Below are positions 20,384 to 40,621 of a stretch of DNA of 64,000 nt, piece by piece. Both the position numbers and the translations under genes were made by a program. Source of the DNA: Pseudorhizobium flavum (lineage in GTDB: Bacteria; Pseudomonadota; Alphaproteobacteria; Rhizobiales; Rhizobiaceae); assembly GCF_902502825.2 (NCBI RefSeq), contig NZ_LR723670.1:1054001-1118000 (forward strand). Reading direction: 5' to 3'. Positions within the stretch are counted from its first letter, which is position 1, and each line of letters begins with the position of its first letter. The notes under the pieces are model-generated. The model worked only from the letters and a program-made list of their open reading frames with translations. It was not told the DNA's origin and did no database searches.

Positions 20384-21088
20384 GTGGATCATGCCGATCA
20401 ACCCGAAGCCTTCGATCCGCTGGCGGTGGACCTTGCGCTGTTCGGCTGCTGGGAGGCTGCACCCGCCTATCGCGACGCGCTGCCGGACGGCGATGTGCTG
20501 GCCGGGGATGTGCGGGCACTGGTGCTTGAGACGAAGTCCGCGGAAGGGGCGCAGGTTTCCGCGGCGGACGAACTGCGGCGGCTCCTGAACGAGATGACGG
20601 TGGAGATGCGCGGGCAGTTCGACGCCTTCCGCAAGATGCGGATTGCGGCCGAGGGCCTGCTTGCCGGTGGCGACGAGACGGCGGGAAAGCTTGCCCGCGC
20701 CGATATCAAGGCGGCGACCGACGCCATGTCACTGATCGTCCGCACGCTGGAAAAGGTCGACAGCCTGCAGCGCCAGCTTGCCCGTGACCGCGAGGACGAG
20801 GCGGAGCGCGCGGCAGAGGCAAGCGGATATGGGCAGGCGAAGGAACGCTTCATTCAGATGATCAAGGACCGTGCCGATGAAGATGCCTTCCGTCTTTACG
20901 AGGCCTGGAAGCGGGATGGCCCGCCAGCCTGGGTATCGGAGCGTCTCGGCGACCAAGCCAGACAGCCAGCGGACGATCAGGCTGCGAAACGAGAAGCTTC
21001 TGGGCAAAACGGTGAAGGTGTCGTCCGACATGGGCCGGGGCTTCGAGAGGATTATTGTGGCCCGGGAAACGGCGAAGCGCACGGCTGA
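20384..21088 (+). CDS. GTA g1-like protein, putative small terminase subunit
   Basis: This 234-residue, largely helical protein lies directly before the large terminase gene, at the position of RcGTA g1 (rcc01682), which has been proposed to be the small terminase subunit that recognises DNA for packaging. A coiled-coil-like stretch spans roughly residues 60-165 (DELRRLLNEMTVEMRGQF... VDSLQRQLARDREDEAERAAEA). The start is GTG at 20384 with GGAG 7 nt upstream. Its C-terminal third overlaps the open frame that leads into g2. The assignment rests mainly on position and size. Confidence 0.7.
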   Translation: MDHADQPEAFDPLAVDLALFGCWEAAPAYRDALPDGDVLAGDVRALVLETKSAEGAQVSAADELRRLLNEMTVEMRGQFDAFRKMRIAAEGLLAGGDETAGKLARADIKAATDAMSLIVRTLEKVDSLQRQLARDREDEAERAAEASGYGQAKERFIQMIKDRADEDAFRLYEAWKRDGPPAWVSERLGDQARQPADDQAAKREASGQNGEGVVRHGPGLREDYCGPGNGEAHG

Positions 21089-21167
21089 CCTGGGTGCGGC
21101 GCTCGTCGGATCGATGCACGACGATGCGAAGTCAGTGTCGCCTGAGACCTCTACTCCTGAAGGTGAG

Positions 21168-22574
21168 ATGTCGCGGGAGACAAGAGAGCAGATTGTCTTC
21201 CCTAGCGGTTTGCAGGAGCTTAGCTCGGGCTACGCAGGGATACCCCCCTCTGCCCTGTCGGGCATCTCCCCCTCAAGGGGGGAGATCGAAGGACCGGGTG
21301 CGCCGCCTTTTCTCGCCTCCGGGAGCGAGGATCCGTACGAAGAGTTCCACATCGGGTTCGAACGCGAGTGGCGCTTTGCCGGTCGCCGCGAACAACGGCC
21401 GCCGCCGGGGGACTGGCGGACGTGGCTGGTCATGGGCGGGCGCGGTTCGGGCAAGACGAGGGCCGGGGCCGAATGGGTGCAGGCGCTGGTCTCTGCGGAT
21501 GGGAACCGCTCGGAGCTTCGGATTGCGCTGGTGGCGGAAACGCTGGGCGAGGCGCGCGAGGTGATGGTGGACGGGGTTTCCGGCATCTGCCGGATCGCCC
21601 GCGGGCGCCGCAGGCCGGAGTTCGAGATCTCGCGCCGACGGATCGTCTGGCCGAACGGCGCGGTAGCGCAGATCTTCTCCTCGGAGGATCCGGAGAGCCT
21701 GCGCGGGCCGCAGTTTCATTTTGCCTGGTGCGACGAGCTGGCGAAGTGGAAGCATGCGGAGGAGACCTTCGACATGCTGCAGTTCGGCTTAAGGCTCGGC
21801 CGCGACCCGCGGCAACTGGTGACGACGACGCCGCGGCCGGTGCTGCTCCTGAAGCGGCTGATGGCGGACGCCGGCACGCGGCTGGTGCGGATCGCGACCA
21901 GGGACAATGCCGGAAATCTGGCGCCCGGCTTCCTCGTCGAGCTGCAGAAGCGCTATGGCGGCACAAGGCTCGGGCGGCAGGAGATCGACGGCGAACTGAT
22001 CGAGGATCGCGAGGACGCGCTGTGGAAGCGCGCCGAGATCGAGGCCTGCACGGTGCGAGTGACCGACGCGCTGCGGCGCATCGTCGTGGCGGTCGATCCG
22101 CCGTCCGGTTCCGGGGAGCATTCCTGCTGCGGCATTGTCGTGGCGGGGCTGGATGCCGGCGGCCGGGCGGTGGTGCTGGCGGATTGTTCCGTGGGGGGCA
22201 TGACGCCAGCCGGCTGGGCGAAGGCCGTGGCCAATACCTACCGGCGGTTTGCCGCCGACCGGATCGTCGCCGAGGTGAACCAGGGCGGCGAGATGGTGGC
22301 GGCGATGCTGAGAAGCGTCGACGTGTCGCTACCGCTGACGCTGGTTCGGGCAACGCGCGGCAAATACCTGCGCGCCGAGCCGGTCGCGGCCCTCTACGAG
22401 CAGCGGCGGGTGGTGCATGCGGGGCGGTTCGTGGAACTGGAAGACCAGATGTGTGACTTCGGGCCGGAGGGCTTGTCCTCGGGCCGCTCGCCCGACCGGC
22501 TGGACGCGCTGGTCTGGGCGCTCACGGCTCTCCTGATCGAGGGGCAGGGAGAGCCGCAGGTGCGGGGAATCTAG
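21168..22574 (+). CDS. GTA g2: phage-type large terminase (packaging ATPase/nuclease)
   Basis: This large terminase translocates DNA into proheads and cuts it. The Walker A motif is GGRGSGKTRAG (about residues 89-98) and Walker B-like is FHFAWCDELAKWK. The RNase H-like nuclease acids appear in VAVDPPSGSGEH, IVAEVNQGGEM and SPDRLDALVWAL. The family core starts only near residue 45 (EDPYEEFHIGFEREW). Upstream residues are partly encoded by an intergenic-type repeat (21239-21290). ATG 21168 is chosen; ATG 21114 or earlier in-frame starts are possible. It lacks the usual ~30-residue N-terminal segment of GTA terminases. Confidence 0.92.
   Translation: MSRETREQIVFPSGLQELSSGYAGIPPSALSGISPSRGEIEGPGAPPFLASGSEDPYEEFHIGFEREWRFAGRREQRPPPGDWRTWLVMGGRGSGKTRAGAEWVQALVSADGNRSELRIALVAETLGEAREVMVDGVSGICRIARGRRRPEFEISRRRIVWPNGAVAQIFSSEDPESLRGPQFHFAWCDELAKWKHAEETFDMLQFGLRLGRDPRQLVTTTPRPVLLLKRLMADAGTRLVRIATRDNAGNLAPGFLVELQKRYGGTRLGRQEIDGELIEDREDALWKRAEIEACTVRVTDALRRIVVAVDPPSGSGEHSCCGIVVAGLDAGGRAVVLADCSVGGMTPAGWAKAVANTYRRFAADRIVAEVNQGGEMVAAMLRSVDVSLPLTLVRATRGKYLRAEPVAALYEQRRVVHAGRFVELEDQMCDFGPEGLSSGRSPDRLDALVWALTALLIEGQGEPQVRGI
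21239..21290 (+). repeat. rhizobial intergenic-type palindromic repeat inside g2
   Basis: This stretch contains a TGCCC-TGTC-GGGCA hairpin followed by ATCTCCCCCT / AGGGGGGAGAT, the C/G-rich paired-hairpin pattern I recognise from abundant rhizobial intergenic repeats (RIME-type). Here it is in frame and would be translated as part of the terminase N-terminus, before the conserved core begins. Confidence 0.55.
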
Positions 22575-22575
22575 A

Positions 22576-22716
22576 TTATTCGGCTGCAGCCAAGCGCGGC
22601 TGCGGAGCCGCGTTCTCGCGCATCTGGCGCCATTCGGATTCAAGACGATCGAGAACGTGCTGGGGAATCGGCTGCTGCTTGGGCTGCGGGGCCGGGGCTT
22701 GCGGGTTCATCATCAT
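22576..22716 (-). CDS. 46-residue micro-ORF, antisense in the GTA-like cluster
   Basis: The frame reads MMMNPQAPAPQPKQQPIPQH, then VLDRLESEWRQMRENA, and ends PQPRLAAAE. It is a Pro/Gln-rich head followed by a short charged helix. GGAGAG precedes three consecutive ATG codons (22716, 22713, 22710). It is transcribed against the GTA genes in the gap between g2 and the lysin gene. The helix looks like a real conserved peptide, but I do not recognise a family. No characterised function. Confidence 0.5.
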   Translation of the reverse strand: MMMNPQAPAPQPKQQPIPQHVLDRLESEWRQMRENAAPQPRLAAAE

Positions 22717-22803
22717 GATCTCTCCATCTCAAAGGCCGACCAAAACGTCCTGTGGCGCCGTTGGTTCCACAAGATGAAGGAATTGTAAATCTGGGTCTAA
22801 CCA

Positions 22804-22839
22804 CTTCAAACGATTTAGTTTTTCTAAACCGATTGAAAG
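22804..22839 (+). promoter_or_regulatory. AT-rich imperfect dyad upstream of the lysin gene
   Basis: CTTCAAACGATTTAG (22804-22818) and CTAAACCGATTGAAAG (22824-22839) form a long imperfect inverted repeat around TTTTT; the TTTAG/CTAAA core is perfect. It is the most AT-rich stretch for several kb and lies about 35 nt before the lysin ATG, so it probably holds its promoter and an operator. Confidence 0.45.
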
Positions 22840-22871
22840 ATCGCCGAATTTCTTCAACGGAGTTAACAGCC

Positions 22872-23504
22872 ATGGTTTCCAAGGCCATCGACCGCCCGTC
22901 CTTCTTCGCCAGGGCGCGGCAGAAGCCGTTCCGCGGTCGCCTGACGCAGAGGCAGGTCGAGGGGGTTTCCGCGATCCTCGACGGCTGGCGACAGCGCACC
23001 GGCGACGATGGCGCCGAGGCCGGCCGGCGGGAACTCGCCTATGTGCTGGCGACCGCCTTCCACGAGACGGCGGCGACCATGCAGCCGGTGCGCGAGACGC
23101 TGGCGCGGACGGATGCCGACGCGATCCGCAAGCTGGACGCCGCCTTCGCCGCCGGGCGGCTGGGCTCGGTCAGGACGCCGTATTGGCGGCGCGACGGCGA
23201 GGGCAAGTGCTGGCTCGGCCGCGGCCTGGTGCAGCTCACCCATCGGCGGAATTATGAGGTGATGTCGGAAGTGACGGGGGTGGACCTCGTCGCCGATCCG
23301 GGCCGGGCGATGGAGATGGACGTGTCGGTGGCAATCCTGATCGAGGGCATGCGCCGCGGCAGCTTCACCGGCCACCGGCTGGAGGACTATTTCGGTCCGG
23401 GCCGCGAGGACTGGGTGGGCGCGCGCAGGATCATCAACGGCCGCGATCGGGCCGACCTGGTGGCGGGGCATGCACGGGAGTTCGCGCGGGCACTGGGTTG
23501 TTGA
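22872..23504 (+). CDS. GH19-type lysozyme/endolysin-like protein
   Basis: This 210-residue lysozyme-superfamily domain is related to GH19 chitinases and phage endolysins. AYVLATAFHETAATMQPVRE carries the likely catalytic Glu65, and YWRRDGEGKCWLGRGLVQLTHRRNYEVM is the typical second motif. There is no signal peptide, so a holin or other export route would be needed. The ATG at 22872 follows CGGAG. The insertion between g2 and g3 is unusual, because RcGTA lysis genes are encoded elsewhere. It could release particles from the cell or act as a tail-associated muralytic enzyme. Confidence 0.8.
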   Translation: MVSKAIDRPSFFARARQKPFRGRLTQRQVEGVSAILDGWRQRTGDDGAEAGRRELAYVLATAFHETAATMQPVRETLARTDADAIRKLDAAFAAGRLGSVRTPYWRRDGEGKCWLGRGLVQLTHRRNYEVMSEVTGVDLVADPGRAMEMDVSVAILIEGMRRGSFTGHRLEDYFGPGREDWVGARRIINGRDRADLVAGHAREFARALGC

Positions 23505-23575: not shown

Positions 23576-24190
23576 ATGTGGACGTGGCTCAGCGAGAACT
23601 ACGGGGTGGTTTCGGCAGTGGCGAGCGTTGCGACGCTCGGCGTCTGGGTGGCCTATCTGCAGCTCTTCTACATGAGCTACCGGCACCAACTGCGGCCGAA
23701 GATCCTGATCACGCGCGGTGGCGGCCACAAGCTTTCCGCCCGCTGCATGCTGACCAACATGAGCCCGGAGATCGTCTTCATCCAGGGCCTGCTCGTCAGG
23801 CTCGCCTTCGACGACAGGGAGCTCTTCTGCTCATTAAGCGACATCGAGAAGGTGGCGAGCGAGGAGCGCGACCCGCGCAGCGAGCTGTTCCAGGGGCCGC
23901 TGTCGGTGGGGGAATATCTCGATCTCGGAACCTTCGAGGATATCGCCCGGGCGGCCATGGACAATTGCGGCGGGGCGGCTGAGCTCGACGAGCTGCGCGA
24001 ACTGGGACTGACGGCGGTCGGCATCTATCCCTGGAAGGACGGCATGGTGGCGGCGGAGCGGAGCTTCACGGTGCGCCACGAGCACGGGCGGCGCGCACTG
24101 GTTTCCGACAAGCCGACGGCGCGGCAGATCCGCTCGCGGCGCGAATTGCGGCGGATCGAACGGATCATGTGGGAAAAGGCGCAGGATTGA
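23576..24190 (+). CDS. hypothetical membrane-anchored protein
   Basis: This 204-residue protein has one N-terminal transmembrane helix (about residues 9-30, VSAVASVATLGVWVAYLQLFYM) and a cytoplasmic or periplasmic domain with LRPKILITRGGGHKLSARCMLTNMSPEIVFIQG and a basic C-terminus (RQIRSRRELRRIERIM). I do not recognise a characterised family. It sits between the lysin and the portal gene. Interference with peptidoglycan or membrane during particle release is speculation from position only. Confidence 0.65.
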   Translation: MWTWLSENYGVVSAVASVATLGVWVAYLQLFYMSYRHQLRPKILITRGGGHKLSARCMLTNMSPEIVFIQGLLVRLAFDDRELFCSLSDIEKVASEERDPRSELFQGPLSVGEYLDLGTFEDIARAAMDNCGGAAELDELRELGLTAVGIYPWKDGMVAAERSFTVRHEHGRRALVSDKPTARQIRSRRELRRIERIMWEKAQD

Positions 24191-24268
24191 GCAGCTCGCG
24201 CTCCCGCTCCGTGTGAACGGCAGGGCGGCGGCGAGGCTTTGGCCAGCGACGGGGAAAGGACCGATATC

Positions 24269-25444
24269 ATGAAATCTCCATTCACGCTGCCGTGGCGAGG
24301 CCCCGGCAGGAGAGAACCTGTGGCCGGCGCACCGGTTGTCGAAGCCAAGGCGGCGACTGCCTTTGCGCTCGTTGCCGGCGACGGCATCGCCCACTGGTCC
24401 GGCCGCTCCTATGGCGGGCTGGCACGCGCAGGCTTCATGAAGAACCCGGTGGCGCATCGGGCCGTGCGGCTGGTGGCGGTGGCCGCAGCCTCGGTGCCGT
24501 GGCTTGCCTATGAGGGCGAGGCGGAGGTGAGCGCACATCCGGCGCTGGCGCTGCTTTCGCAGCCGAACGGGCGGCAGGCGGGGCCGGACTTCTTCGAGGT
24601 GCTCTACGGCCACCTGATGCTCTCCGGCAATGCCAATGTCGAGCCGCTGGTGCTGGGCGACGCTCTGCGGGAACTGCATCTGTTGCGGCCGGACCGGGTG
24701 AGCGTGGTAGAGGGCCGCGACGGCTGGATCACCGCCTATGACTACCGGGCGGGCAGTGTGAGCCGTCGACTGCCGGCGGAGAGCGAGGGGCGGCTTTCGC
24801 TCCTGCACCTGAAACTCTTCCATCCGCTTGACGACCATCTGGGCTTTCCGCCGCTGGCGGCTGCCGGTGCTGCGCTCGACCTGCACAATGCGGCGGGCGA
24901 ATGGAACAAGGCGCTGCTCGACAATTCCGCCCGACCCTCCGGGGCGCTGGTCTACCAGCCGAAGGAGGGCGGCAATCTTTCCGCCGACCAGTACGAGCGG
25001 CTGAAGGCGGAGCTCGAAAGCGGCTATGCCGGCGCCGTCAATGCTGGCCGGCCGCTGCTGCTCGAAGGCGGGCTGGACTGGAAGTCGATGGGCCTGTCAC
25101 CAAAGGACATGGATTTCATCGAGGCGAAGAACGCCGCCGCCCGCGACATTGCGCTGTCGCTCGGCGTGCCGCCGATGCTGATGGGCATTCCAGGTGACAA
25201 TACCTATGCGAACTACCAGGAAGCCAACCGCGCCTTCTACCGGCTGACGGTGGTGCCGCTCCTGACGCGCACGGCGGCGAGCTTCTCCGCCTGGCTGTCG
25301 GAGGTTTATGGAGAGGCGATAAGGCTGGAGCCGGACCTCGACCCCATCGCGGGCTTGTCCGCAGAGCGGGATGCGCTCTGGGCAAGGGTGGGGGCGGCGG
25401 CGTTCTTGACGGAGGAGGAGAAGCGGCAGGCGGTGGGGTATTGA
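24269..25444 (+). CDS. GTA g3: HK97-type portal protein
   Basis: This 391-residue portal protein (rcc01684 homologue) would form the dodecameric ring at the head vertex through which DNA enters. Family segments include MKNPVAHRAVRLVAVAAASVP, LMLSGNANVEPL, the wing and stem helices around FHPLDDHLGFPPLAAAG, and the C-terminal LSLGVPPMLMGIPGDNTYANYQEANRAFYR. The ATG at 24269 has AAAGGA upstream; an in-frame ATG at 24239 is less likely. The length is typical. Confidence 0.93.
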   Translation: MKSPFTLPWRGPGRREPVAGAPVVEAKAATAFALVAGDGIAHWSGRSYGGLARAGFMKNPVAHRAVRLVAVAAASVPWLAYEGEAEVSAHPALALLSQPNGRQAGPDFFEVLYGHLMLSGNANVEPLVLGDALRELHLLRPDRVSVVEGRDGWITAYDYRAGSVSRRLPAESEGRLSLLHLKLFHPLDDHLGFPPLAAAGAALDLHNAAGEWNKALLDNSARPSGALVYQPKEGGNLSADQYERLKAELESGYAGAVNAGRPLLLEGGLDWKSMGLSPKDMDFIEAKNAAARDIALSLGVPPMLMGIPGDNTYANYQEANRAFYRLTVVPLLTRTAASFSAWLSEVYGEAIRLEPDLDPIAGLSAERDALWARVGAAAFLTEEEKRQAVGY

Positions 25445-25481
25445 GGGCGGGTTGCCGGAACCGGGGAAGGGGCGTAAGATT

Positions 25482-25500
25482 TGTAATACGTCGTATTACA
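25482..25500 (+). promoter_or_regulatory. perfect palindromic operator of the toxin-antitoxin pair
   Basis: TGTAATACG-T-CGTATTACA has perfect 9-bp arms and lies 13 nt before the antitoxin ATG, overlapping its promoter region. RHH antitoxins such as ParD bind palindromes of this sort, alone or with the toxin, to repress their own operon. Confidence 0.75.
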
Positions 25501-25513
25501 ACAGGAGCAGACC

Positions 25514-25777
25514 ATGGCCGATAAACCCGCTCTGTCCGATCCGATCACCCTGCGGCTGCCGCTGGATATTCTCGAGGATGTCGAAAAGATTGCCGAGACC
25601 GCGGATCGTAGCCGGTCCTGGGTGATCGTGCGGGCGCTGAAATATTATCTGATGGCGGAGGGCAATGACATTCTGCAGATCCGCAAGGGCGAAGAGCAAA
25701 TTGCACGCGGCGAAACCGTGGATGCAGAGGAGCTGTTTGCGGATTTGCTCGGTGAGGCAAAGAGTGATGCTGCCTGA
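25514..25777 (+). CDS. ParD-like RHH antitoxin
   Basis: This 87-residue antitoxin has an N-terminal ribbon-helix-helix DNA-binding fold (ITLRLPLDILEDVEKIAETADRSRSWVIVRALKYYL) and an acidic, probably disordered C-terminal half that would wrap the toxin. AGGAG precedes the ATG. Its stop overlaps the toxin start (TGATG), so the pair is translationally coupled. The module lies inside the GTA-like cluster between g3 and g3.5, which is not canonical. Confidence 0.88.
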   Translation: MADKPALSDPITLRLPLDILEDVEKIAETADRSRSWVIVRALKYYLMAEGNDILQIRKGEEQIARGETVDAEELFADLLGEAKSDAA

Positions 25778-26076
25778 TGCGCATCAAGCTTTCCAAGAAT
25801 GCGACGCTGTTTCTGAGGAATGAGCATCGGTACCTGAGTCAATTCAACCCACGGGCGGCGGATAATGTTCTGCGCCAATTGCGGGCAGCGTTGCGCATGC
25901 TTGCCGAATACCCGCAGGCGGGAAGCGCCGAAGGGCCGCTGGACGGCAGGCGACGCTTCGTCTCGGGAGATTATGTCATCGACTACCGATCTGCGAGCAG
26001 GCTCCTGGAGGTCTCACACATTCGCCACGGACGGCAGCTGCCTCCGCTCAAAAAGGGTGCCGATGTGGATCTGTGA
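25777..26076 (+). CDS. ParE/RelE-superfamily toxin
   Basis: This 99-residue toxin has the ParE-like pattern: helices in RYLSQFNPRAADNVLRQLRAALRMLAEYPQAGS, then the beta strands RRFVSGDYVIDYRSASRLLEVSHIRHGRQ. ParE toxins target DNA gyrase, whereas RelE relatives cut mRNA at the ribosome; which applies cannot be read from the sequence. The tail IRHGRQLPP is typical of the ParE branch. It is coupled to the antitoxin upstream. Confidence 0.88.
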   Translation: MRIKLSKNATLFLRNEHRYLSQFNPRAADNVLRQLRAALRMLAEYPQAGSAEGPLDGRRRFVSGDYVIDYRSASRLLEVSHIRHGRQLPPLKKGADVDL

Positions 26077-26160
26077 GAACCAGATCTGCGGATTTAACGA
26101 GATAAGCCCTTCATCCATCACGTGAAGAACCGGAATCGCTGCACGAACATCCCGGGCCAA

Positions 26161-26256: not shown

Positions 26257-26574
26257 ATGGCTGACCTTGGCAACGAGGCTGGCGTCCTGGCGGCGAAGGC
26301 GGCCGGGGCGGCGGCGGGTGCGGGTGTTTCGCTCATCTACCTGTTGCCGAAGAGCCGGCGCGAGGCGGCGAGCCGCTTCTTCACTGGGCTCTGCTGCGGG
26401 CTGATCTTCGGCAAGCCGGCCGGGCTGTGGCTCTCCGACCGGATGGGGATCGCGGACGAGCTGACCGGGCTGGAAATTTCACTTACCGGCTCAGCGGCGG
26501 CAAGCCTGCTCGCCTGGTGGGTGCTCGGCGCGCTCGTGCGCGTGGCGGAGCGATGGGGCAAGCGGGCGGGCTGA
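26257..26574 (+). CDS. GTA g3.5-like protein (DUF6107-like)
   Basis: This 105-residue protein sits between the portal and protease genes at the position of RcGTA g3.5. It starts with an Ala/Gly-rich helix (LAAKAAGAAAGAGVSLIYLLP), then RREAASRFFTGLCCGLIFG and a C-terminal hydrophobic stretch, so it is probably a small membrane protein with two or three helices. I associate it with DUF6107 of rhizobial GTA clusters. The function is unknown. AAGGAAG precedes the ATG. Confidence 0.75.
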   Translation: MADLGNEAGVLAAKAAGAAAGAGVSLIYLLPKSRREAASRFFTGLCCGLIFGKPAGLWLSDRMGIADELTGLEISLTGSAAASLLAWWVLGALVRVAERWGKRAG

Positions 26575-26621
26575 TCCTCCGCCGGCTCTCGAACAGACAA
26601 TCACGATCGCAGGAGACTTTC

Positions 26622-27239
26622 ATGCACGCTCACCGCGGGCCCCGCATTCCTATGGGCGCATCCACGCGCCCGATACTGCGCCCGAGTGCGCGGAAGTTCG
26701 CCAATCTGGAACTGGCGGGTGTTTCCGGCGACGGGACGTTCTCGGGCTATGCCTCGGTGTTCGGCGAGGTCGATCTCGGCAAGGACAGGATCGAGCGCGG
26801 CGCCTTTGCCAATTCGCTGGCGGAACGCGGCGCGCGCGGCGTGCGCATGCTCTATCAGCATGATCCGGCAGAGCCGATCGGCGCCTGGACGGTGATCCGA
26901 GAGGATGCCCGCGGGCTTTATGTCGAGGGGCGGCTTTCGCCGGGCGTCGGTCGCGCGGCTGAGGTCTTCTCGCTGATGAAGTCCGGGGCGCTCGACGGGC
27001 TGTCGATCGGCTTCCGGACGGTGAAGGCGCGTTCCGACCCGAAGAGCGGGGTGCGCCGCATCCTGGAGGCGGACCTCTGGGAAATCTCGGTGGTGACCTT
27101 CCCGATGCTGCCCTCGGCGCGCGTCTCCGACGTCAAGCATGCGCGGTTCTTCCGCGACCGGGAAACTGAACTCGTCCGCCAGATGCGGCGGGCGGCGAAG
27201 ATGATGTTGAAACCCAGCTTCAAAGGAAAAGCGACATGA
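26622..27239 (+). CDS. GTA g4: HK97-family prohead protease
   Basis: This 205-residue serine protease trims the capsid scaffold during head maturation. The herpes-assemblin/HK97-type catalytic pair is His80 (MLYQHDPAEPIG) and Ser128 (GALDGLSIGF), and the family opening FSGYASVFGEVDLGKDRIERGAF is intact. AGGAGA lies 5 nt before the ATG at 26622. The stop overlaps the capsid start (ATGA), fixing both ends. Confidence 0.93.
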   Translation: MHAHRGPRIPMGASTRPILRPSARKFANLELAGVSGDGTFSGYASVFGEVDLGKDRIERGAFANSLAERGARGVRMLYQHDPAEPIGAWTVIREDARGLYVEGRLSPGVGRAAEVFSLMKSGALDGLSIGFRTVKARSDPKSGVRRILEADLWEISVVTFPMLPSARVSDVKHARFFRDRETELVRQMRRAAKMMLKPSFKGKAT

Positions 27240-28689: not shown

Positions 28690-28732
28690 GGCCGTGGCGA
28701 CGGACTTTCCCCAATCATTTTCGGACACCCCA

Positions 28733-29272: not shown

Positions 29273-29300
29273 TCGCGCCGTTTCGGATGCGGAGGCTGTG

Positions 29301-32661: not shown

Positions 32662-32680
32662 ATTGAAGAAACCTACCAAA

Positions 32681-32707
32681 CGTAACTTCGTTCCCGTTTA
32701 TGTTACG
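32681..32707 (-). promoter_or_regulatory. candidate TetR operator
   Basis: CGTAAC (32681-32686) and GTTACG (32702-32707) form perfect 6-bp arms with a 15-nt spacer, immediately upstream of the TetR start. The position suits autoregulation. The short arms make chance possible. Confidence 0.35.
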
Positions 32708-32843: not shown

Positions 32844-33001
32844 GCAGCCGGACCACGCATCCGTCTACCAAAGCTAATCCCAATGGACGACGATGACATT
32901 TCGCTTGCCGATACGCTCGGCGAGGCGGAGGAGCTTTCGCGCGTGATGGCGGATCTGGAGGCGCGGTCGCAGCGGTTCGGGGCGGCGCTGACGGGAGCTT
33001 T
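32844..33001 (+). repeat. 158-bp direct repeat, copy A (5' end of g11)
   Basis: The stretch matches 33948-34105 without gaps and with about 10 substitutions (about 94% identity). It includes the g11 leader with its ribosome binding region and the first ~40 codons. It ends at the exact base where the hydrolase stop codon begins on the other strand, so the two repeats tightly bracket the hydrolase gene. Confidence 0.9.
32883..33001 (+). pseudogene. truncated 5' copy of GTA g11 (tape measure)
   Basis: The start ATG and about 40 codons of g11 (MDDDDISLADTLGEAEELSR and onwards to AALTGAL) are intact and in frame. The frame then runs into antisense sequence of the hydrolase gene and stops at 33212. 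The fusion product would have no tape-measure function. The complete gene lies at 33987-34523. The SD of this copy is degraded (AAGCTAAT instead of AAGGTGAT). Confidence 0.85.
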
Positions 33002-33884
33002 ATGGGTCTTTGACTTGGTCAAGCGCATGCTTGATGGCGGTGGCACAGCGGCCCGGATGTTCCCAGTGCGGATAGTGGCCGAGCCCGTCCAACTCATGGA
33101 TCTCGGCATCCGGCATGCGCTTGCGAACCTCGGCCAGCATGTGAGCGCCCGACACCGGATCCGCCGGTCCCCATACGAACGCGCTTCGGCTGGCGGCTGC
33201 CTCCATCGCTGATTCCCACGTCGCGCCGTGGCGGCGACGGTCGTCGATATAGTGGAGCAACTGAGGCAGGCGGGCGAGACCGTCGGCATGCGCGATCTCC
33301 CGCCAGTGCGCCTCGGCGTCCGCCTCGCTCCAGGCATCGTGCTCACCGGCCATCGCGTTCAGGGCGTTCCGGAGCGATGCAGACGTCATCCGGCGCGCGA
33401 CGATGGGACCAAGCATGGGCGTGCGCAGTATTGGCTGGATCAGCCGCTGCCGGTGCAGGCGAGCGTAGACGCCGCCGTTGAGGTACACGATCCGATCGAT
33501 GCAGAACGGTATCGCACCTTTCGCTTCCCGCGTCAGCAACTCTTGGGCGAGCGTAACCGCATAGTCGTGCGCCACCACGCGTACACGCTCGATCCCTAGC
33601 TGCTCAAGCAAGGTCGAGATCAGATCGGCCTGGAGCGGATAGCTGTAGCGGATGTTGGGCTTCTCCGACCGGCCGAACCCGAGAAGGTCGGGTGCTATCG
33701 CGCGATCCTCGTCAAGGTGCGGCAGAATATGCGTCCAATCAAGCGAACTGGTCGGGAAGCCGTGGAGGAAAAGGATAGCCGACGCGTTGGCGGCGCCTTG
33801 CTCCCGCATAAACAGGGAGTAGCTTCCGCCTTTGGTCTCAAGGGTGAGCCTTCGCGTGGACCCGCTCTGATTATCGCTCATCAT
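33000..33884 (-). CDS. alpha/beta hydrolase (haloalkane dehalogenase/epoxide hydrolase-like)
   Basis: This 294-residue alpha/beta hydrolase has the oxyanion motif HGFPTSSLDW (residues 41-50) and DLLGFGRSEKP. The nucleophile elbow VAHDYAV has Asp107 in place of Ser, and the catalytic His lies in GLGHYPHWEHP near the C-terminus. An Asp nucleophile points to the haloalkane dehalogenase/epoxide hydrolase branch, not to esterases. The elbow is HDYA, without the usual Trp-Gly. It is opposite to the GTA genes, bracketed by the two g11 repeats, and may belong with the TetR/cupin pair. Confidence 0.9.
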   Translation of the reverse strand: MMSDNQSGSTRRLTLETKGGSYSLFMREQGAANASAILFLHGFPTSSLDWTHILPHLDEDRAIAPDLLGFGRSEKPNIRYSYPLQADLISTLLEQLGIERVRVVAHDYAVTLAQELLTREAKGAIPFCIDRIVYLNGGVYARLHRQRLIQPILRTPMLGPIVARRMTSASLRNALNAMAGEHDAWSEADAEAHWREIAHADGLARLPQLLHYIDDRRRHGATWESAMEAAASRSAFVWGPADPVSGAHMLAEVRKRMPDAEIHELDGLGHYPHWEHPGRCATAIKHALDQVKDP

Positions 33885-33947: not shown

Positions 33948-34105
33948 GCAGCCGGATCACGCATCCGTCCACGAAAGGTGATCCCAATGGAAGACGGTGA
34001 CATTTCGCTTGCCGATACCCTCGGCGAGGCGGAGGAGCTTTCGCGCGTGATGGCGGATCTGGAGGCGCGGTCGCAGCGGTTCGGGGCCGCGCTGACGGGG
34101 GCTTT
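33948..34105 (+). repeat. 158-bp direct repeat, copy B (leader and 5' end of intact g11)
   Basis: This is the functional copy: the leader from GCAGCCGGA through AAAGGTGAT and the first ~40 codons of the complete g11 gene. It is about 94% identical to 32844-33001. Differences are spread evenly over the repeat, so the duplication is not very recent. Confidence 0.9.
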
Positions 34106-34523
34106 GCGCTCTGCGACGGCCGGCGGCAAGGGGCTGGAGGATGTGCTGCGGGGGCTCGGCAACCGGCTGACGGATATTGCGCTCTCGGCGGCGCTGAAGC
34201 CGCTGGAAGGCGCGCCCGGCAATGCGATCGGCGGCTTCATGGGGTCCGTGGTGCCCTTCGCGGACGGCGGCGTGGTGCGCAGCCCCAGCTTCTTTCCGAT
34301 GGGCGGCGATCTCGGCCTGATGGGCGAGGCGGGGGCGGAGGCGATCCTGCCGCTGAGGCGCGGGCCGGATGGCGCTCTTGGGGTTTCGGCGGGCGGTGGC
34401 GGGGCGGCGACACAGATCGTCTTCAACGTGACCGCGACGGATGCCGCGAGCTTTCGCAAGAGCGAAGGGCAGATCGCCGCCATGCTGGCCAGGAGTGTCG
34501 GGCGCGGGCAGCGCGGACTGTAG
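33987..34523 (+). CDS. GTA g11: tail tape-measure protein
   Basis: This 178-residue homologue of rcc01694 is a short tape measure, consistent with the short tails of GTAs. Features are SLADTLGEAEELSRVMADLE, GLEDVLRGLGNRLTDIALSAALKP, and the tail-protein motif GGFMGSVVPFADGGVVRSPSFFPMGGDLGLMGEAGAEAILPLRRG. ATG 33987 has AAAGG at 33974-33978; the GTG at 33978 lies within that SD. Its 5' end is duplicated at 32844-33001. The insert upstream separates it from g10.1. Confidence 0.9.
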   Translation: MEDGDISLADTLGEAEELSRVMADLEARSQRFGAALTGALRSATAGGKGLEDVLRGLGNRLTDIALSAALKPLEGAPGNAIGGFMGSVVPFADGGVVRSPSFFPMGGDLGLMGEAGAEAILPLRRGPDGALGVSAGGGGAATQIVFNVTATDAASFRKSEGQIAAMLARSVGRGQRGL

Positions 34524-34572: not shown

Positions 34573-35211
34573 ATGACGGCATTTCACGAGGTGCAGTTTC
34601 CGCTGCGCTTGGCGCTCGGTACGAGCGGCGGGCCGGTACGGCGGACCGATATCGTCAACCTGTCCAACGGGCGGGAGAACCGCAATGCCCGCTGGCGGGA
34701 TTCGCGTCGCAGCTATGATGCGGGGTCGGGCATCAAGTCTGTCGCCGATCTCTACGCGGTGCTCGAATTCTTCGAGGCGCGCCGCGGGCGGCTGCACGGC
34801 TTTCGCTTCCGCGACCCGCTGGACTGGAAATCCTGTGCGCCAGGTGCGGCGGTCTCCGCCGGCGACCAGGAGATCGGCATCGGCGACGGAGTGACGGCGA
34901 GTTTTCCGCTGGTGAAGACCTATGGCGACGGGGGCACAGGCTGGGTGCGTCGGATCGCCAAGCCGGTGGCGGGGACGGTGCAGGTCTCGGTCGATGGCGC
35001 CGCGGTGGCGCCGGCGAACTATGCGGTGGATGCCGTGGCGGGCATGGTCACCTTCGTGCCCGGACAGGCACCGGCGACGGGTTCGGTGGTGCGGGCGGGG
35101 TTCGAGTTCGACGTGCCGGTCCGCTTCGACACCGACCGGATCGACGTCGACCTCAGTCACTTCGATGCCGGGCGCATTCCGACCATACCGCTGACGGAGA
35201 TCCTGCCATGA
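34573..35211 (+). CDS. GTA g12: DUF2460 distal tail protein
   Basis: This 212-residue DUF2460 protein (rcc01695) forms the distal tail ring. The family opening FHEVQFPLRLALGTSGGPVRRTDIV, then NARWRDSRRSYDAGSGIKSVADLYAVLEFFEARRGRLHGFRFRDP, and the C-terminal DVPVRFDTDRIDVDLSHFDAG are all present. GAGG precedes the ATG. Its stop overlaps the g13 start. Confidence 0.93.
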   Translation: MTAFHEVQFPLRLALGTSGGPVRRTDIVNLSNGRENRNARWRDSRRSYDAGSGIKSVADLYAVLEFFEARRGRLHGFRFRDPLDWKSCAPGAAVSAGDQEIGIGDGVTASFPLVKTYGDGGTGWVRRIAKPVAGTVQVSVDGAAVAPANYAVDAVAGMVTFVPGQAPATGSVVRAGFEFDVPVRFDTDRIDVDLSHFDAGRIPTIPLTEILP

Positions 35212-36095
35212 GGAGCATACCCGAGGAACTTGCCGCCCATCTTGCGGGCGAGGCCACCACCACCTGCCACTGCTGGCGGGTGACGCGGCGCGACGGCGCG
35301 ATGCTCGGCTTCACCGATCACGATCATGATCTTGCCTTCGACGGCACGCTCTTCTTGGCCGCCAGCGGCTTTGCGGGCAGCGAGGTGGAGGCCGCGACCG
35401 GGCTTGCGGCGAGTGTCGACGAGGTGGCGGGCGGCTTCTCCAGCGAGGTGATCCGCGAGGAGGACCTGACTGCCGGGCTCTATGACGGAGCGCGTGTGGA
35501 GCGTTTCCTCGTTAACTGGGATGCGCCCGAGGCTCACATGCTGCTCGACATGCGCGAGGTGGGAGAGGTGACCCGGTCGGGCGAGGCCTTTACCGCCGAG
35601 CTGCGCAGCATGGCCCATCGCCTCGCACAGCCGCAGGGGCGCGTCTACAACCGCCGCTGCGACGCGGAGTTCGGCGACGGGCGGTGCCGGGTCGATCTGT
35701 CTGCCTGGCAGGGGAGCGGCAGCGTTCTGGCGGTCACGGACGCGAGCACGATCAGCGTCGGCGGACTGGACGGATTCGCGGAAGGATTCTTCCGCCTCGG
35801 CGTCCTGTCGCTCGCCGACGGGCGGCGGATCGACGTCGAGGCCGATCACCGGCTGCCGGACGGCGCGCGGCAACTCTCCTTATGGCTGCCGCTGGAAGGG
35901 GCGCCCGGAGACGTGCTGACGCCGGGGCAGGCGTTCACCATCACCGCCGGCTGCGACAAGACCTTCGCCACCTGCCGCGGGCGCTTTGCCAACCAGGTGA
36001 ACTTCCGCGGCTTTCCGCATGTTCCCGGCAGTGACTTCGCCTACTCCTATGCGGCCGGGGAGGGACGTCATGATGGCGGGGCGATCTTTTCATGA
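35208..36095 (+). CDS. GTA g13: DUF2163 tail hub protein
   Basis: This 295-residue hub protein (rcc01696 family) has an N-terminal DUF2163 domain (TTTCHCWRVTRRDGAMLGFTDHDHDL) and a C-terminal BR0599-type domain. Four cysteines, in YNRRCDAEFGDGRCRVDL and ITAGCDKTFATCRGRF, match the set described as holding an iron-sulphur cluster in the RcGTA hub. The start and end overlap g12 and g14 (ATGA at both). Confidence 0.93.
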   Translation: MRSIPEELAAHLAGEATTTCHCWRVTRRDGAMLGFTDHDHDLAFDGTLFLAASGFAGSEVEAATGLAASVDEVAGGFSSEVIREEDLTAGLYDGARVERFLVNWDAPEAHMLLDMREVGEVTRSGEAFTAELRSMAHRLAQPQGRVYNRRCDAEFGDGRCRVDLSAWQGSGSVLAVTDASTISVGGLDGFAEGFFRLGVLSLADGRRIDVEADHRLPDGARQLSLWLPLEGAPGDVLTPGQAFTITAGCDKTFATCRGRFANQVNFRGFPHVPGSDFAYSYAAGEGRHDGGAIFS

Positions 36096-36535
36096 CCGGG
36101 CAGGGTGCGCGAATCGTAACGCTGGCGGAGAGTTGGCTCGGCACGCCCTATCGCCACCAGGGCGCCACGAAAGGGGTCGGCTGCGATTGCATCGGCCTCG
36201 TTCGCGGCATCTGGCGGGAACTCTATGGCAACGAACCGGAGGCCGTGCCGGCTTACGCGCCGGACTGGGCCGAGCGCAGCGGCGAGGAGCGGCTGCTGGA
36301 GGCGGGGCGGCGGCTGTTCGGCCCAGCGCTGCCGGTGGACGCCGCCGCACCGGGCGACCTGCTGCTCTTCCGCTGGCGGCCGGATTGCGCGGCAAAGCAT
36401 GCGGGCATCCAGGCAGGGCCACGGCATTTCATCCATGCCTATGAGCAGGCGGCGGTGATCCGCTCGGCGCTGGTGCCGTCATGGCGCCGGCGTATCGTGG
36501 CGGTGCACCGGTTTCCGCCCGACGCCCATGATTGA
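36092..36535 (+). CDS. GTA g14: NlpC/P60 cell-wall peptidase
   Basis: This 147-residue NlpC/P60 cysteine peptidase sits in the tail tip and cuts peptide cross-links when DNA enters the recipient. Catalytic Cys33 lies in GCDCIGLVRG and the catalytic His in AAKHAGIQAG, followed by the polar residue in GPRHFIHAYE. The length is typical for rcc01697. It is coupled to g13 by a 4-nt overlap. Confidence 0.93.
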   Translation: MTGQGARIVTLAESWLGTPYRHQGATKGVGCDCIGLVRGIWRELYGNEPEAVPAYAPDWAERSGEERLLEAGRRLFGPALPVDAAAPGDLLLFRWRPDCAAKHAGIQAGPRHFIHAYEQAAVIRSALVPSWRRRIVAVHRFPPDAHD

Positions 36536-36553: not shown

Positions 36554-39500
36554 ATGGCCACTATTCTCTTCCAGGCGGCGGGCGCGGCGCTCGGCGGTGT
36601 CTTCGGTCCTGTCGGCGCGATGCTTGGGCGCGCGGCGGGCGGGCTGGCCGGCAGCTATGTGGATCGCGCACTGATCAATGGTGGGCGGACAGTCTCCGGA
36701 GCGAGGCTGGCGACTGCACGCATTCCGGGTGCCGACGAGGGCGCGCCGGTCAGCCGCGTCTACGGGACAGCCCGGATCGGCGGCACGCTGATCTGGGCGA
36801 CGCGTTTCGAGGAAGAGGTGCGGCGGGAACGCTCCGGCGGCAAGGCGAGCGGTCCGCGCGTGGAGAGCTTCCGGTACTTCGCGAACCTCGCCATCGGGCT
36901 CTGCGAGGGCGAGATTGCAGGGATCAGGCGGGTGTGGGCGGACGGTCGCGAGATCGACCTGACGGACGTGGAGATGCGCGTCTATCGGGGCGGGGAGGAA
37001 CAGCTGCCCGATCCGCTGATCGAGGCAAAGCAGGGCATGGGCAACGCGTCTGCCTATCGCGGCCTCGCCTATGTCGTCTTCGATCGCCTGCCGCTCGATC
37101 CGTTCGGCAACCGTATTCCGCTGCTGCAGTTCGAGGTGCTGCGTCCGATCGGCGCGCTGGAGCGGCAGATCCGTGCGGTCACGATCATTCCCGGCGCGAC
37201 CGAACATGGCTATGCGAAGGTGCAGGTGACGGAGAAGACTGGCGAAGGCAGCGCCCGGATCATGAACCGCCATACCTTGACGGCGACGACCGACTGGGAG
37301 GCCTCGATCGACGAGCTGACGGCGCTCTGCCCGAACCTCGAGCGGGTGGCGCTGGTCGTCAGCTGGTTCGGGACGGACCTGCGGGCCGGCCACTGCCGCA
37401 TCCTGCCGGGTGTGGAGGTACCGCACCGGGACGACGAAAGCTCGCTCTGGTCGGTCGCCGGTTTCACGCGCGCCGATGCCCATGTCGTCAGCAGCCACGG
37501 GGGTGGCCCGGCCTATGGTGGCACGCCGAGCGACGATAGCGTGCTCCAGGCCATTGCGGACCTCAAGGCGCGGGGACTGGAGGTCTATCTCTACCCGTTC
37601 CTGATGATGGACGTTCCACAAGGCAACGGCCTTCCCGATCCGCATGGAGGAGCGGAGCAGGCGAGCTACCCCTGGCGCGGCCGCATCACCTGCCATCCCG
37701 CACCCGGCCTGCCCGGCACGACCGACCGGACGGCGGCGGCGCGAACCCAGGTGGCGGCCTTCGCCGAAGGCCCGGACGGTTACCGCCGCATGGTGCTGCA
37801 CTATGCCGGACTGGCGGCCGTAGCCGGCGGCATCGACGGCTTCCTCATAGGGTCGGAGCTGCGTGGGCTGACGCAGGTGCGCGACGAGGCCGGGCGGTTC
37901 CCCTTCGTCGATGAACTGGTACAGCTGGCGGAGGATGTCCGGACGATGCTTGGCTCGCAGGCGAAGCTGACCTACGGCGCCGACTGGAGCGAGTATTTCG
38001 GCTATCACCCGCAGGACGGCTCCGGCGACGTCTTCTTCCACCTCGACCCGCTCTGGGCGTCGCCGGCGATCGATGCGGTCGGCATCGACAACTACATGCC
38101 GCTCGCCGACTGGCGTGACGAGGATCTCGCGAGCGCCAATCCCGATGGTTTTCGTCTTGCCGAGGATGGCGAGGCAATGCGGGCGCAGATCGCGGCGGGG
38201 GAAGGCTTCGACTGGTACCATGCGAGCGATGCGGATCGAGCCGCACGCCTTCGGACGCCGATCACCGACGGGGCGGCGGGCAAGCCCTGGGTGTTCCGGC
38301 CCAAAGATCTGGCCGGCTGGTGGTCGAATTATCACCGTGATCGCCTCGGCGGTGAGGAGGTGACGCAGCCGACTGCCTGGCAACCGGAGATGAAGCCGAT
38401 CTGGTTCACCGAACTCGGCTGCCCGGCGGTAGACAAGGGGGCCAACCAGCCGAATGTCTTCATCGATCCGAAATCGGCCGAAAGTGCTGCCCCGCATTTT
38501 TCCAACTTGGCCCGATCCGACGCCATGGAGCGGCGCTTCCTGGAAGCGCATCACCGGCATTGGCAGGGGCAGGACACCGGTCCGGTCGACCCGGATCATG
38601 TCTTCGTCTGGACCTGGGACGCGCGCCCCTTTCCTGCCTTTCCCGCCGATCTTTCCGCCTGGAGCGACGGCGGCAACTGGCGAGGTGGACACTGGTTGAA
38701 CGGCAGGCTGGGCGCGGCGACGCTGGCCGACGCGATCGCTGCCATCCTGGCGGATCATGGTTTTCACGATTTCGACGTGTCGGAGGTGAGCGGCGACCTC
38801 ATCGGCTATGTGCAGGCGGAGGTGACCTCGGCGCGTGCCCTGCTCGCGCCGCTGCTCGACGTCTTCAGGATCGACGCGATCGAGGAAGCGGGGCGGCTCA
38901 GGTTCCGGTCGCGAGGCGCTGCGAGCCTTCCGCCAGCCGTCATCGATGTGCTCGCCGATGTGGAGGATCAGCCGCTGTGGAGCGAGACCCGCGGCCATGA
39001 CAGCGACTTCGCCGCCGAAGTGGTGATTGGCTCCTACAATCCGGCCTTGAACTACGAGCAGGCGAGCGCCCGGTCCCGGCGGACGAGGACGGCGAGCAAC
39101 CGGGTTCTTGGCTATGACCTGCCGGCCGTTCTGGCCGAGGAAGCAGCGCTTTCCGCAGCGGAGGCCGCCGTCCGCGACCAATGGGTGTCGCGACGGACGC
39201 TGAGCTTCGCGCTGTCCCCGGCCGACGTCGGCCTTCAGCCGGGCGATCCGATCACGTTGCCGCAGGCCGGCGGGACGTTTCTCGTTTCGCGCGTCGAGGA
39301 AGGGCCGGTGCGCCGGATAGATGCGCGCCAGCATGCCACCTCCGCGCCTGCCGCACCCGTGCGGGAGACGCCGGGGCCCGGAGGTGGGGACACCGGTTCG
39401 GACGCGTTTGCTCCGATCCTCCATCTTCTCGACCTGCCGCGCTTCGCTTCTGGTCCGGGGGAGAGCTTCGCCCGGGCGGCGGGCCATGCGCGTCCCTGGC

Positions 39501-40339
39501 AACGGATCATGCTGTCCTCGTCGCCGACAACGGAGGGATATGCGCCGCGTGCAGTGCTCGACCGGCCGGTCCGGATCGGACGGCTCACGGCGCCGCTTGC
39601 GTCCGGCACCATCTCGGGGCGCTTCGACCACGGGTCGACGGTAGAGCTCGACCTCTTCTTCGGCGGCCTGTCGTCCGCCTCATTGGAAGCGGTGCTGGCG
39701 GGCGAGAACCGGCTGGCGGTGAAGGCAGCGAGCGGGACATGGGAGATCGTCAGTTTCCTTGAGGCGCAGGAAGTCGCGCCTGCTCGCTGGCGGCTCGCAA
39801 GGCTGCTGCGCGGACTGGCAGGAACGGAGGACGCAATGTCCGAGGGCGCGCCGGCGGTGGCTCCGGTGGTGCTCCTGGACGAGGCGGTCGCGTCGCTCGG
39901 GCTGACCGCAGAGGAACGTGGCCGGGTGCTGAACTGGATTGCCGAAGGCAGCGGGTCCGCCGGCAGCCGTGTGGGGCCATTGCCCTTCCAGGGCGGGATC
40001 AGGGCGGAGACACCGCTCTCGCCCGTGCACCTGGGTGCCCGCCGACTGGCCAATGGCGACCTGCTGCTGTCTTGGATCCGTCGGGGCAGGGTGGAGGCGG
40101 ACGACTGGGATGCCGCCGATATTCCGCTCGACGAGCCGGAGGAGCGCTACCGCGTCGACATTCTCGACGGTTCCACCGTGCGGCGTTCGGCGGAGGTAGT
40201 GGCGCCGCAACTTCTCTACAGCCTCGACCAGCAAACCACCGATTTCGGTCAGCCGCTGCCGGCGGTGACTATCCGCGTTCGCCAGCTGGGCCGGGCGGTG
40301 CCGCTCGGGGTTGCGGCGACCGCCACCATTCAAACCTAG
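36554..40339 (+). CDS. GTA g15: tail-tip 'megatron'/host-specificity protein
   Basis: This 1261-residue tail-tip protein (rcc01698) has an N-terminal membrane-active glycine-rich region (AAGAALGGVFGPVGAMLGRAAGG). A GTA TIM-barrel-like domain is roughly residues 430-740 (FLIGSELRGLTQVRDE, KPIWFTELGCPAVDKGANQPN), then comes a phage-tail_3 domain (about 780-960), and the C-terminus is receptor-proximal. In RcGTA the homologue forms the channel crossing the recipient envelope. The frame is intact over the full length, which argues against simple decay of the cluster. AGGCGGGCTT is the only SD-like sequence. Confidence 0.93.
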   Translation: MATILFQAAGAALGGVFGPVGAMLGRAAGGLAGSYVDRALINGGRTVSGARLATARIPGADEGAPVSRVYGTARIGGTLIWATRFEEEVRRERSGGKASGPRVESFRYFANLAIGLCEGEIAGIRRVWADGREIDLTDVEMRVYRGGEEQLPDPLIEAKQGMGNASAYRGLAYVVFDRLPLDPFGNRIPLLQFEVLRPIGALERQIRAVTIIPGATEHGYAKVQVTEKTGEGSARIMNRHTLTATTDWEASIDELTALCPNLERVALVVSWFGTDLRAGHCRILPGVEVPHRDDESSLWSVAGFTRADAHVVSSHGGGPAYGGTPSDDSVLQAIADLKARGLEVYLYPFLMMDVPQGNGLPDPHGGAEQASYPWRGRITCHPAPGLPGTTDRTAAARTQVAAFAEGPDGYRRMVLHYAGLAAVAGGIDGFLIGSELRGLTQVRDEAGRFPFVDELVQLAEDVRTMLGSQAKLTYGADWSEYFGYHPQDGSGDVFFHLDPLWASPAIDAVGIDNYMPLADWRDEDLASANPDGFRLAEDGEAMRAQIAAGEGFDWYHASDADRAARLRTPITDGAAGKPWVFRPKDLAGWWSNYHRDRLGGEEVTQPTAWQPEMKPIWFTELGCPAVDKGANQPNVFIDPKSAESAAPHFSNLARSDAMERRFLEAHHRHWQGQDTGPVDPDHVFVWTWDARPFPAFPADLSAWSDGGNWRGGHWLNGRLGAATLADAIAAILADHGFHDFDVSEVSGDLIGYVQAEVTSARALLAPLLDVFRIDAIEEAGRLRFRSRGAASLPPAVIDVLADVEDQPLWSETRGHDSDFAAEVVIGSYNPALNYEQASARSRRTRTASNRVLGYDLPAVLAEEAALSAAEAAVRDQWVSRRTLSFALSPADVGLQPGDPITLPQAGGTFLVSRVEEGPVRRIDARQHATSAPAAPVRETPGPGGGDTGSDAFAPILHLLDLPRFASGPGESFARAAGHARPWQRIMLSSSPTTEGYAPRAVLDRPVRIGRLTAPLASGTISGRFDHGSTVELDLFFGGLSSASLEAVLAGENRLAVKAASGTWEIVSFLEAQEVAPARWRLARLLRGLAGTEDAMSEGAPAVAPVVLLDEAVASLGLTAEERGRVLNWIAEGSGSAGSRVGPLPFQGGIRAETPLSPVHLGARRLANGDLLLSWIRRGRVEADDWDAADIPLDEPEERYRVDILDGSTVRRSAEVVAPQLLYSLDQQTTDFGQPLPAVTIRVRQLGRAVPLGVAATATIQT

Positions 40340-40352
40340 AAGGAGACAGAGC

Positions 40353-40565
40353 ATGGACGGAATGAAGACCTGGTATCAGTCGAAGACGGTATGGGGCGCG
40401 CTGATCGCGGTTGCGGCTTCCATTGCACAGATGGCGGGGGTGGATCTGGCGCCTGACGTGCAGAACGACATTGCCGACCTCGCGATTGCGCTTGGCGGTG
40501 CGCTGGGCGGCGCCTTGTCGATCTATGGACGCATCTCCGCCAGCACTGCCATTGGGCGGCGATGA
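40353..40565 (+). CDS. holin-like small membrane protein
   Basis: This 70-residue protein, KTWYQSKTVWGALIAVAASIA..., has a hydrophobic helix at about 10-30 and a second Gly/Ala-rich helix at about 42-60 (IALGGALGGALSIYGRISA). The size, two short helices and basic end suit a class II-like phage holin, and it closes the GTA-like operon with AAGGAG before the ATG. With the GH19-type lysin upstream it could form a lysis pair. The function is inferred from structure and place. Confidence 0.65.
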   Translation: MDGMKTWYQSKTVWGALIAVAASIAQMAGVDLAPDVQNDIADLAIALGGALGGALSIYGRISASTAIGRR

Positions 40566-40574
40566 GCGCCATCG

Positions 40575-40621
40575 GCCCGGGAAGGTTATCAAAACCTTTC
40601 CGGGCTCCCCCCTGTTTTTTA
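40575..40621 (+). terminator. strong terminator at the end of the GTA-like cluster
   Basis: GCCCGGGAAGGTT (40575-40587) and AACCTTTCCGGGC (40593-40605) form a 13-bp stem with one G-T pair and a 5-nt loop, followed by a C-run and a seven-T tract ending at 40621. It marks the right end of the cluster. Confidence 0.88.

Follow-up and report, generated by a model that had tools for sequence, protein, structure and literature searches.

The head-tail genes of the gene transfer agent (GTA) of Rhodobacter capsulatus, RcGTA, run from g1 to g15 with g3.5 and g10.1 in their places, and the RcGTA-like clusters of Hyphomicrobiales share this order and the "megatron" tail tip. We report on a 64 kb stretch of Pseudorhizobium flavum DNA (hereafter the window), which carries at 20384-40621 a complete, intact RcGTA-like head-tail cluster of the Rhizobiaceae type with the same order and tail tip. 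As in other RcGTA-type clusters, no replication or integration genes are seen in it; it differs from them by a lysin inside the cluster, a toxin-antitoxin (TA) slot between the portal gene and g3.5, and cargo between g10.1 and g11.

A lysozyme gene between terL and the portal gene has been described for five Agrobacterium/Rhizobium genomes (PMC11409702, section 10), and the window has its lysis gene at the same junction. The section of that paper on these clusters mentions neither a TA slot nor cassette exchange, and the word "toxin" does not occur in its main text. The literature searched, from which subscription journals were missing, described no TA locus within a GTA cluster; as far as it shows, the TA slot is undescribed, and the rest of the locus is mostly an ordinary GTA, extended by genes usual in its family and by an insert peculiar to its lineage. 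The slot shares with ParDE-type TA loci an RHH antitoxin gene directly upstream of the ParE gene and a palindrome in front of it (solved relatives of the proteins are 3kxe, toxin parE-1, 5cw7, 5czf and 6x0a). It differs from such loci in that its RHH lineage is bound to one junction of GTA clusters and in that the DNA-binding half of the antitoxin is conserved, while the antitoxin tail and the toxin are exchanged.

The toxin-antitoxin slot and its exchanged cassette

The comparison covers 82 loci: that of the window, that of the nearest genome, G001, and 80 loci of named genomes, mostly Rhizobiaceae, kept from the 87 confirmed in a capsid search. The best capsid matches are in Rhizobium halophilum (95%; genome G065, locus L001) and Pseudorhizobium endolithicum (94%; genome G029).

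The toxin and the tail of the antitoxin have been exchanged between species as a cassette. In a 50-bp identity profile the window is 80-100% identical to R. halophilum over 25000-25650, 38-72% identical from there to about 26150, and 88-98% identical beyond; the low stretch spans roughly 490 bp at about 50% identity. The profile against P. endolithicum falls from 76-92% to 34-70% and returns to 76-98%, and that against G001 drops near 25450 and recovers near 26100. The N-terminal blocks of the antitoxin are 0.73-0.89 identical between toxin classes, the later ones 0.38-0.66, with 0.11 in a gappy block. Distances correlate at 0.88 between portal and capsid, at 0.65 between RHH and ParE, and at 0.21 between portal and ParE. 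The capsid tree joins the window with R. halophilum and locus L002 (100/99); the ParE tree, which has long branches, rejects this grouping at a cost of 98.6 log units (p-AU 3e-35; the ParE rows of L003, L006 and L014 were left out of the trees). When ParE is cut at 45% distance into six classes, the capsid tree requires 15 class changes, compared with 5 if each class had arisen once.

An RHH gene lies between the portal gene and g3.5 in 39 of the 82 loci and a ParE gene in 38, and ParE without RHH was met in no locus of the survey; 35 of the 36 ParE proteins scanned match PF05016. The survey considered junctions with both neighbours found and a gap above 250 bp (portal and g3.5 were both found in 74 of the 82 loci), and its seven hidden Markov models were built from the same open reading frames (ORFs) as were surveyed; one model, RHH_HicB, mixes HicB- and TacA-like proteins, and single members per family were scanned with Pfam. 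At least one of these models matched in 44 of the 82 loci, and all 125 matches are on the GTA strand. The junction between the lysin and g3 holds TumE (7 loci), HVO_A0114 (8), HicB-like (7) and HicA (3) proteins, and GNAT with a TacA-like partner is found between g8 and g9 (10 loci). A further pair, Gp49-like with HTH, is present in L032. In the sister genome G001 the g3 slot is occupied by HicAB instead of RHH-ParE; a 153-residue ORF there (L142:2973-3434), with no Pfam match, overlaps the HicB end, looks SecB-like by eye and is possibly a third gene of the chaperone type. In the class as a whole, 30 of 289 genomes contained GTA_TIM, and of the 29 beyond G001 the analysis covered 20 (four stretches being shorter than 20 kb); one TA-like pair, DUF4258 with HTH in L152, was picked by eye, three of the 100 gap ORFs having been scanned.

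Given 616 ParE matches in 57 genomes, chance alone would place about 0.04 of them in a 20-kb stretch, a comparison weakened by inheritance, which makes the loci non-independent. The 38 best RHH matches in the 57 genomes have E of at most 5e-24 and at least 61% identity, and 34 of them lie 5.8-10.8 kb from g11; two more are on another contig than g11, and two are in genomes without g11, one of which (G079) has its RHH gene on the contig of a partly deleted GTA locus (L025). All further matches have E of at least 1e-20 and at most 53% identity. In these genomes the RHH lineage is nearly confined to GTA clusters.

A palindrome, TTGTAATACnnnGTATTACAA, stands once, with no mismatch, between the portal and RHH genes of the window. 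As a candidate operator it is the sole match in the 64 kb at up to three mismatches (0 in 100 shuffles). It occurs once in each of 38 of the 82 loci, all of them with RHH, and in none of the other 44, including the RHH-bearing L042; it was found once per genome in five of six genomes and was absent from G001, which is without this RHH lineage. Since the operator was found solely upstream of RHH, the TA locus appears to regulate itself, apart from the control of the GTA. The idea that RHH regulates other GTA genes was dropped, there being no second operator copy in the window or the 82 loci. A promoter scan near the TA locus gave no site on the plus strand.

Possible roles of the RHH-ParE locus

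ParE toxins are known as gyrase inhibitors by family reputation. We tentatively propose that the window holds an intact GTA cluster with two exchange slots, in which the RHH-ParE locus works as an addiction or allele-guard locus; we consider this quite possible, though short of probable. Slot 1, between the portal gene and g3.5, is occupied by an RHH-ParE locus that is self-contained and has a candidate operator to itself; the cassette of this locus is replaced between species. RHH presumably represses its operator, and un-neutralised ParE would act on gyrase, a target assigned by family. A cell losing the region would be poisoned by the leftover toxin, as would a recipient whose allele is replaced by a mismatched GTA-borne one, and such poisoning would select for cells that retain the costly cluster and would maintain diversity among its alleles. 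Slot 2, between g10.1 and g11, holds accessory genes, mostly antisense, in combinations that vary among Pseudorhizobium-type genomes, with a partial g11 copy as the probable scar of one such event. The genomic facts (architecture, low dN/dS, the slots, the cassette borders, the conflict of trees and the confinement of the operator in what was searched) fit an addiction or allele-guard locus, and a well-placed passenger would fit them nearly as well.

A number of observations weigh against the proposal. No surveyed TA family is found in 38 of the 82 loci, so a GTA needs no TA locus, and there are cases in which the toxin is broken or missing and the antitoxin kept (L042 and G028; internal stops in G068 and G081). 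The retention of g11 in 36 of 38 RHH-bearing genomes against 12 of the 19 others (Fisher p 0.004) is confounded, since g11 and RHH disappear together when the whole cluster is lost. The 15 class changes lie just below the range of 16-23 given by 300 label shuffles, the data tested also served to define the classes, and branches of the ParE tree are long. Finally, ParE-family toxins need not act on gyrase, and toxicity, operator binding and the effect on retention are predictions from the sequence.

It is possible as well, though we would put less weight on it, that the cassette is a selfish passenger in a tolerated gap, recombining via the flanking GTA homology and having no effect on GTA maintenance. 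Many other accessory genes, some plainly metabolic, sit at GTA junctions, and ParE genes are common in the genomes at large; the near confinement of the RHH lineage to the slot is not what a mere passenger leads one to expect, nor is the presence of several TA families at GTA junctions with every match on the GTA strand, which is expected if the benefit is tied to the place, an argument weakened by shared descent. It is tempting to let ParE serve GTA biology directly, its inhibition of gyrase in recipients or producers raising allele replacement or slowing growth during transfer, and sub-inhibitory gyrase inhibitors are reported to increase gene transfer by RcGTA through their effect on recipients (PMC9690577). 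Nevertheless, the position of the operator, solely upstream of RHH, leaves no visible link to GTA control, the gyrase target is given by family, and the role is predicted; we regard such a function as distinctly unlikely.

The addiction proposal can be extended to the family: Rhizobiaceae GTAs might be held by dedicated many-allele addiction loci, in which the DNA-binding half of the antitoxin is the anchor, the toxin and tail are swapped, and a mismatch poisons the recipient or raises recombination via gyrase inhibition. We find this rather doubtful. If true, such loci would give GTAs a partly selfish, self-protecting character and would explain the persistence of costly GTAs. The producers of GTAs die, so that their upkeep by bacteria calls for an explanation, and a TA locus linked to the cluster offers a simple, testable mechanism of retention. 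The sharp-bordered cassette is also a natural marker for recombination at GTA loci.

Structural genes, selection and chromosomal place

Pfam matches cover the terminase, portal, g3.5, S78 protease, capsid, connectors, tail tube, g10, g10.1 and g12-g15, and together with PHROGs they put the structural genes g2-g15 in RcGTA order (Table 1). The sequence-only reading had listed all genes of the RcGTA type in order, which is established by family for g2-g15, g3.5 and g10.1; the g1 candidate has homologs at related loci, but no family match in Pfam, PHROGs or NCBIfam scans. The start of g2 is uncertain, its first 166 residues being matched in only 16 of the 82 loci, and the true start of g6 is probably later, as in two relatives the sequence aligned with its beginning is interrupted by a stop at residue 7. 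The tail-tip gene g15 is open and scores 1643.6 bits against NCBIfam NF048004 "megatron" (cut-off 800). A strong terminator had been claimed for the cluster end; a hairpin is present (fold z -2.15, equal folding in 6 of 200 shuffles), but the late T-run and the consensus terminator scan, which made no call there, mean that the word "strong" is not fully borne out. No RNA family reached the gathering score in 18000-43500.

Table 1. Features of the GTA cluster in the window
Feature	Position	Strand	Evidence and remarks
g1 candidate, position of terminase small subunit	20384..21088	+	homologs in 67/82 loci (window counted), 59 without stop
g2 terminase large subunit	20871..22574	+	PF03237, PF17289; domain from residue 187
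GH19-like endolysin, family-typical	22752..23504	+	PF00182 below cut-off; phrog_181 endolysin
Unknown 204-aa gene between lysin and portal	23576..24190	+	seen only in four Pseudorhizobium-type loci: G001, L001, L002, window
g3 portal	24239..25444	+	PF04860
Candidate palindromic operator TTGTAATACGTCGTATTACAA	25481..25501	.	upstream of antitoxin
RHH antitoxin, GTA-linked lineage	25514..25777	+	PF01402; N-terminal part conserved, C-terminal part variable
Exchanged cassette vs R. halophilum, P. endolithicum: antitoxin tail and toxin	25650..26140	.	50-bp identity profile; borders to about 50 bp
ParE toxin, class A	25777..26076	+	PF05016
g3.5 (DUF6107)	26257..26574	+	PF19602
g4 prohead protease	26427..27239	+	PF04586
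g5 major capsid	27236..28507	+	PF05065
g6 connector	28694..29272	+	PF05135
g7 head completion	29298..29633	+	PF05521
g8 tail completion	29612..30049	+	PF11367
g9 tail tube	30088..30495	+	PF06199
g10	30495..30845	+	PF11836
g10.1 tail assembly chaperone	30842..31075	+	PF09550; homologs in 70/82 loci
DUF6176 cargo	31220..31576	+	PF19673
EutQ-like cupin cargo	31668..32042	-	PF06249; dN/dS 0.12 vs G001
TetR regulator cargo	31996..32697	-	PF00440; dN/dS 0.24 vs G001
Partial second copy of g11 start	32844..33001	+	148/158 identical to 33948-34105
Alpha/beta-hydrolase cargo	33000..33884	-	PF12697; dN/dS 0.20
g11 tail tape measure, intact	33978..34523	+	PHROGs tape-measure families; dN/dS 0.10-0.12
g12	34573..35211	+	PF09343
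g13	35208..36095	+	PF09931, PF09356
g14 NlpC/P60 peptidase	36092..36535	+	PF00877
g15 tail-tip "megatron", 1261 aa, intact	36554..40339	+	PF13547, PF13550, PF23666
Holin-like gene	40311..40565	+	phrog_4712 holin, phrog_29088 unknown
Hairpin, possible terminator	40575..40605	+	13-pair stem; T-run starts 9 bases past stem

The ratio of nonsynonymous to synonymous substitution rates (dN/dS; Nei-Gojobori on pairs, some alignments partial) is 0.02-0.55 in 51 comparisons of g2-g15, the lysin and the holin with G001, R. halophilum and P. endolithicum, and 49 of the values are below 0.42; the highest belong to g8 and g6. The values, which the sequence-only reading had named as a check on selection, are thus low and not neutral. 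Flanking genes give 0.05-0.25, save one partial 65-codon alignment at an unreliable 5.7, and one flank stretch in P. endolithicum has two stops. The synonymous distances (dS) to R. halophilum are mosaic: 0.13-0.40 for g2-g9 and g11; the hydrolase has 0.34 and the lysin 0.61, and the values are higher for g10 and g12-g15 (0.69-0.95), the flanking downstream kinase (1.19) and the holin (1.46). This suggests that much of the front half of the cluster may have been exchanged between species; the unknown gene at 23576, in the front half, breaks the pattern (1.11).

A decaying cluster filling with foreign genes is a very improbable account of the window, the structural genes of which are open and of low dN/dS, with g11 intact beside its partial copy. 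Loss does occur in the family, as L025, L030 and L037 are without a match to g10-g14; these three loci keep the portal, protease and capsid genes, and L025 also the RHH/ParE pair. A temperate prophage is scarcely credible. Two records filed as phage carry similar clusters, with portal identities of 61-63%, but both also carry behind the cluster the two-component genes that are found there in bacterial genomes, and therefore look like chromosomal stretches with a GTA. The block itself gave no megablast match among 50,697 phage records and is to be taken for a GTA, not a phage. The absence of an integrase, claimed earlier, agrees with the family matches of the scanned cluster ORFs, among which there is none, and with G001, whose nearest chromosomal PF00589 genes (at 392 kb and 1347 kb, the GTA being at about 897-920 kb) are about 0.43-0.5 Mb off; serine and other integrases were not searched for. 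The cluster is neither a prophage nor decaying. The two records, L168 (MW091529.1) and L169 (MW462191.1), were deposited as bacteriophages and are apparently misfiled chromosomal contigs.

The cluster is at a fixed chromosomal place, vertically placed and under purifying selection. Its flanks are chromosomal, and G001 is syntenic with the window over 57 kb (4005-60879); the matching pieces are 89-96% identical at the nucleotide level, and there are indels within the cluster. A two-component pair lies downstream; its regulator gene also stands behind g15 in 8 of the 80 named loci (many others end earlier) and in three relatives. The upstream genes at 14813-20157 all run antisense to the GTA and encode a glutaminase and subunits of a molybdenum hydroxylase (PaoC-like, below cut-off).

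Family-typical additions and the g10.1-g11 insert

Compactness is not a rule for Rhizobiaceae GTA clusters. The lysin is present in 67 of the 80 related loci, always between g2 and g3; a gene between the lysin and g3 is found in 50 of the 82 loci and an antisense gene between g8 and g9 in 55, both counted by clustering, with one member scanned of each (a Dabb domain and MFS, respectively). The g8-g9 gene is not in the window, G001, R. halophilum or L002. Gaps with additional ORFs are present in GTA loci outside the family too; one such locus has a ParA-like ATPase, recognised by eye, between the terminase and portal genes (L166:7777-8661).

The statement that GTA clusters resist insertion accordingly fails in this family, and the idea of recent inflation by lysis and stabilising modules is not supported, lysin and TA loci being widespread in the related loci. 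The notion of foreign cargo stands for the accessory genes, and not for the lysin and the RHH/ParE-type locus, which are not peculiar to the window; the "stabilising" TA pair is no fresh gain, though it is the best lead, as a GTA-linked locus with its toxin half replaced. What is lineage-specific in the window is the 204-residue gene, which matched no family in Pfam, PHROGs or PADLOC scans, and the g10.1-g11 insert. None of ten cargo or TA proteins matched PADLOC as defence genes.

Tolerance of cargo within the operon may have to do with a DUF6456 protein, encoded in three of three relatives about 28-38 kb upstream of the cluster, which we take to be GafZ-like. By analogy with Caulobacter, where GafZ enables polymerase to read through terminators within the core cluster (PMC13236601), it might do so here as well, and this may be why the cargo is tolerated.

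The TA pair, cupin, TetR regulator and hydrolase named earlier are all present by family match; the DUF6176 gene had gone unnamed, and it has no match in the compared stretches of G001, R. halophilum and P. endolithicum. In the window the junction reads DUF6176, cupin, TetR, partial g11, hydrolase, g11. In G001 it reads S8 subtilase, cupin, TetR, g11, the cupin/TetR stretch being 93% identical to that of the window; the subtilase (L142:8820-11261) is autotransporter-like by eye. R. halophilum has the hydrolase (87% identical), a subtilase homologous to that of G001, and g11, and P. endolithicum has another 1.8 kb. The g10-to-g11 spacing is 187-941 bp in the other 65 loci with both genes found. 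The hydrolase, cupin and TetR genes of the cargo have dN/dS of 0.12-0.24.

The repeat first described as 172 bp is in fact a 158-bp direct repeat, a partial duplicate of the beginning of g11. The two copies have states in common that neither G001 nor R. halophilum shows, and the duplication therefore appears to have arisen in the lineage of the window or in a very close donor or relative; an origin from two parents, one G001-like and one like R. halophilum, is ruled out by these shared states. We presume that two versions of the junction underwent homology-assisted illegitimate recombination, which would have left g11 intact. A plasmid origin of the hydrolase was considered and rejected, the best plasmid match being 31% (among the best 10 of 562 records); among the best 120 of 828 proteins its closest named relatives are those of R. 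halophilum (87%) and Pseudorhizobium marinum (83%).

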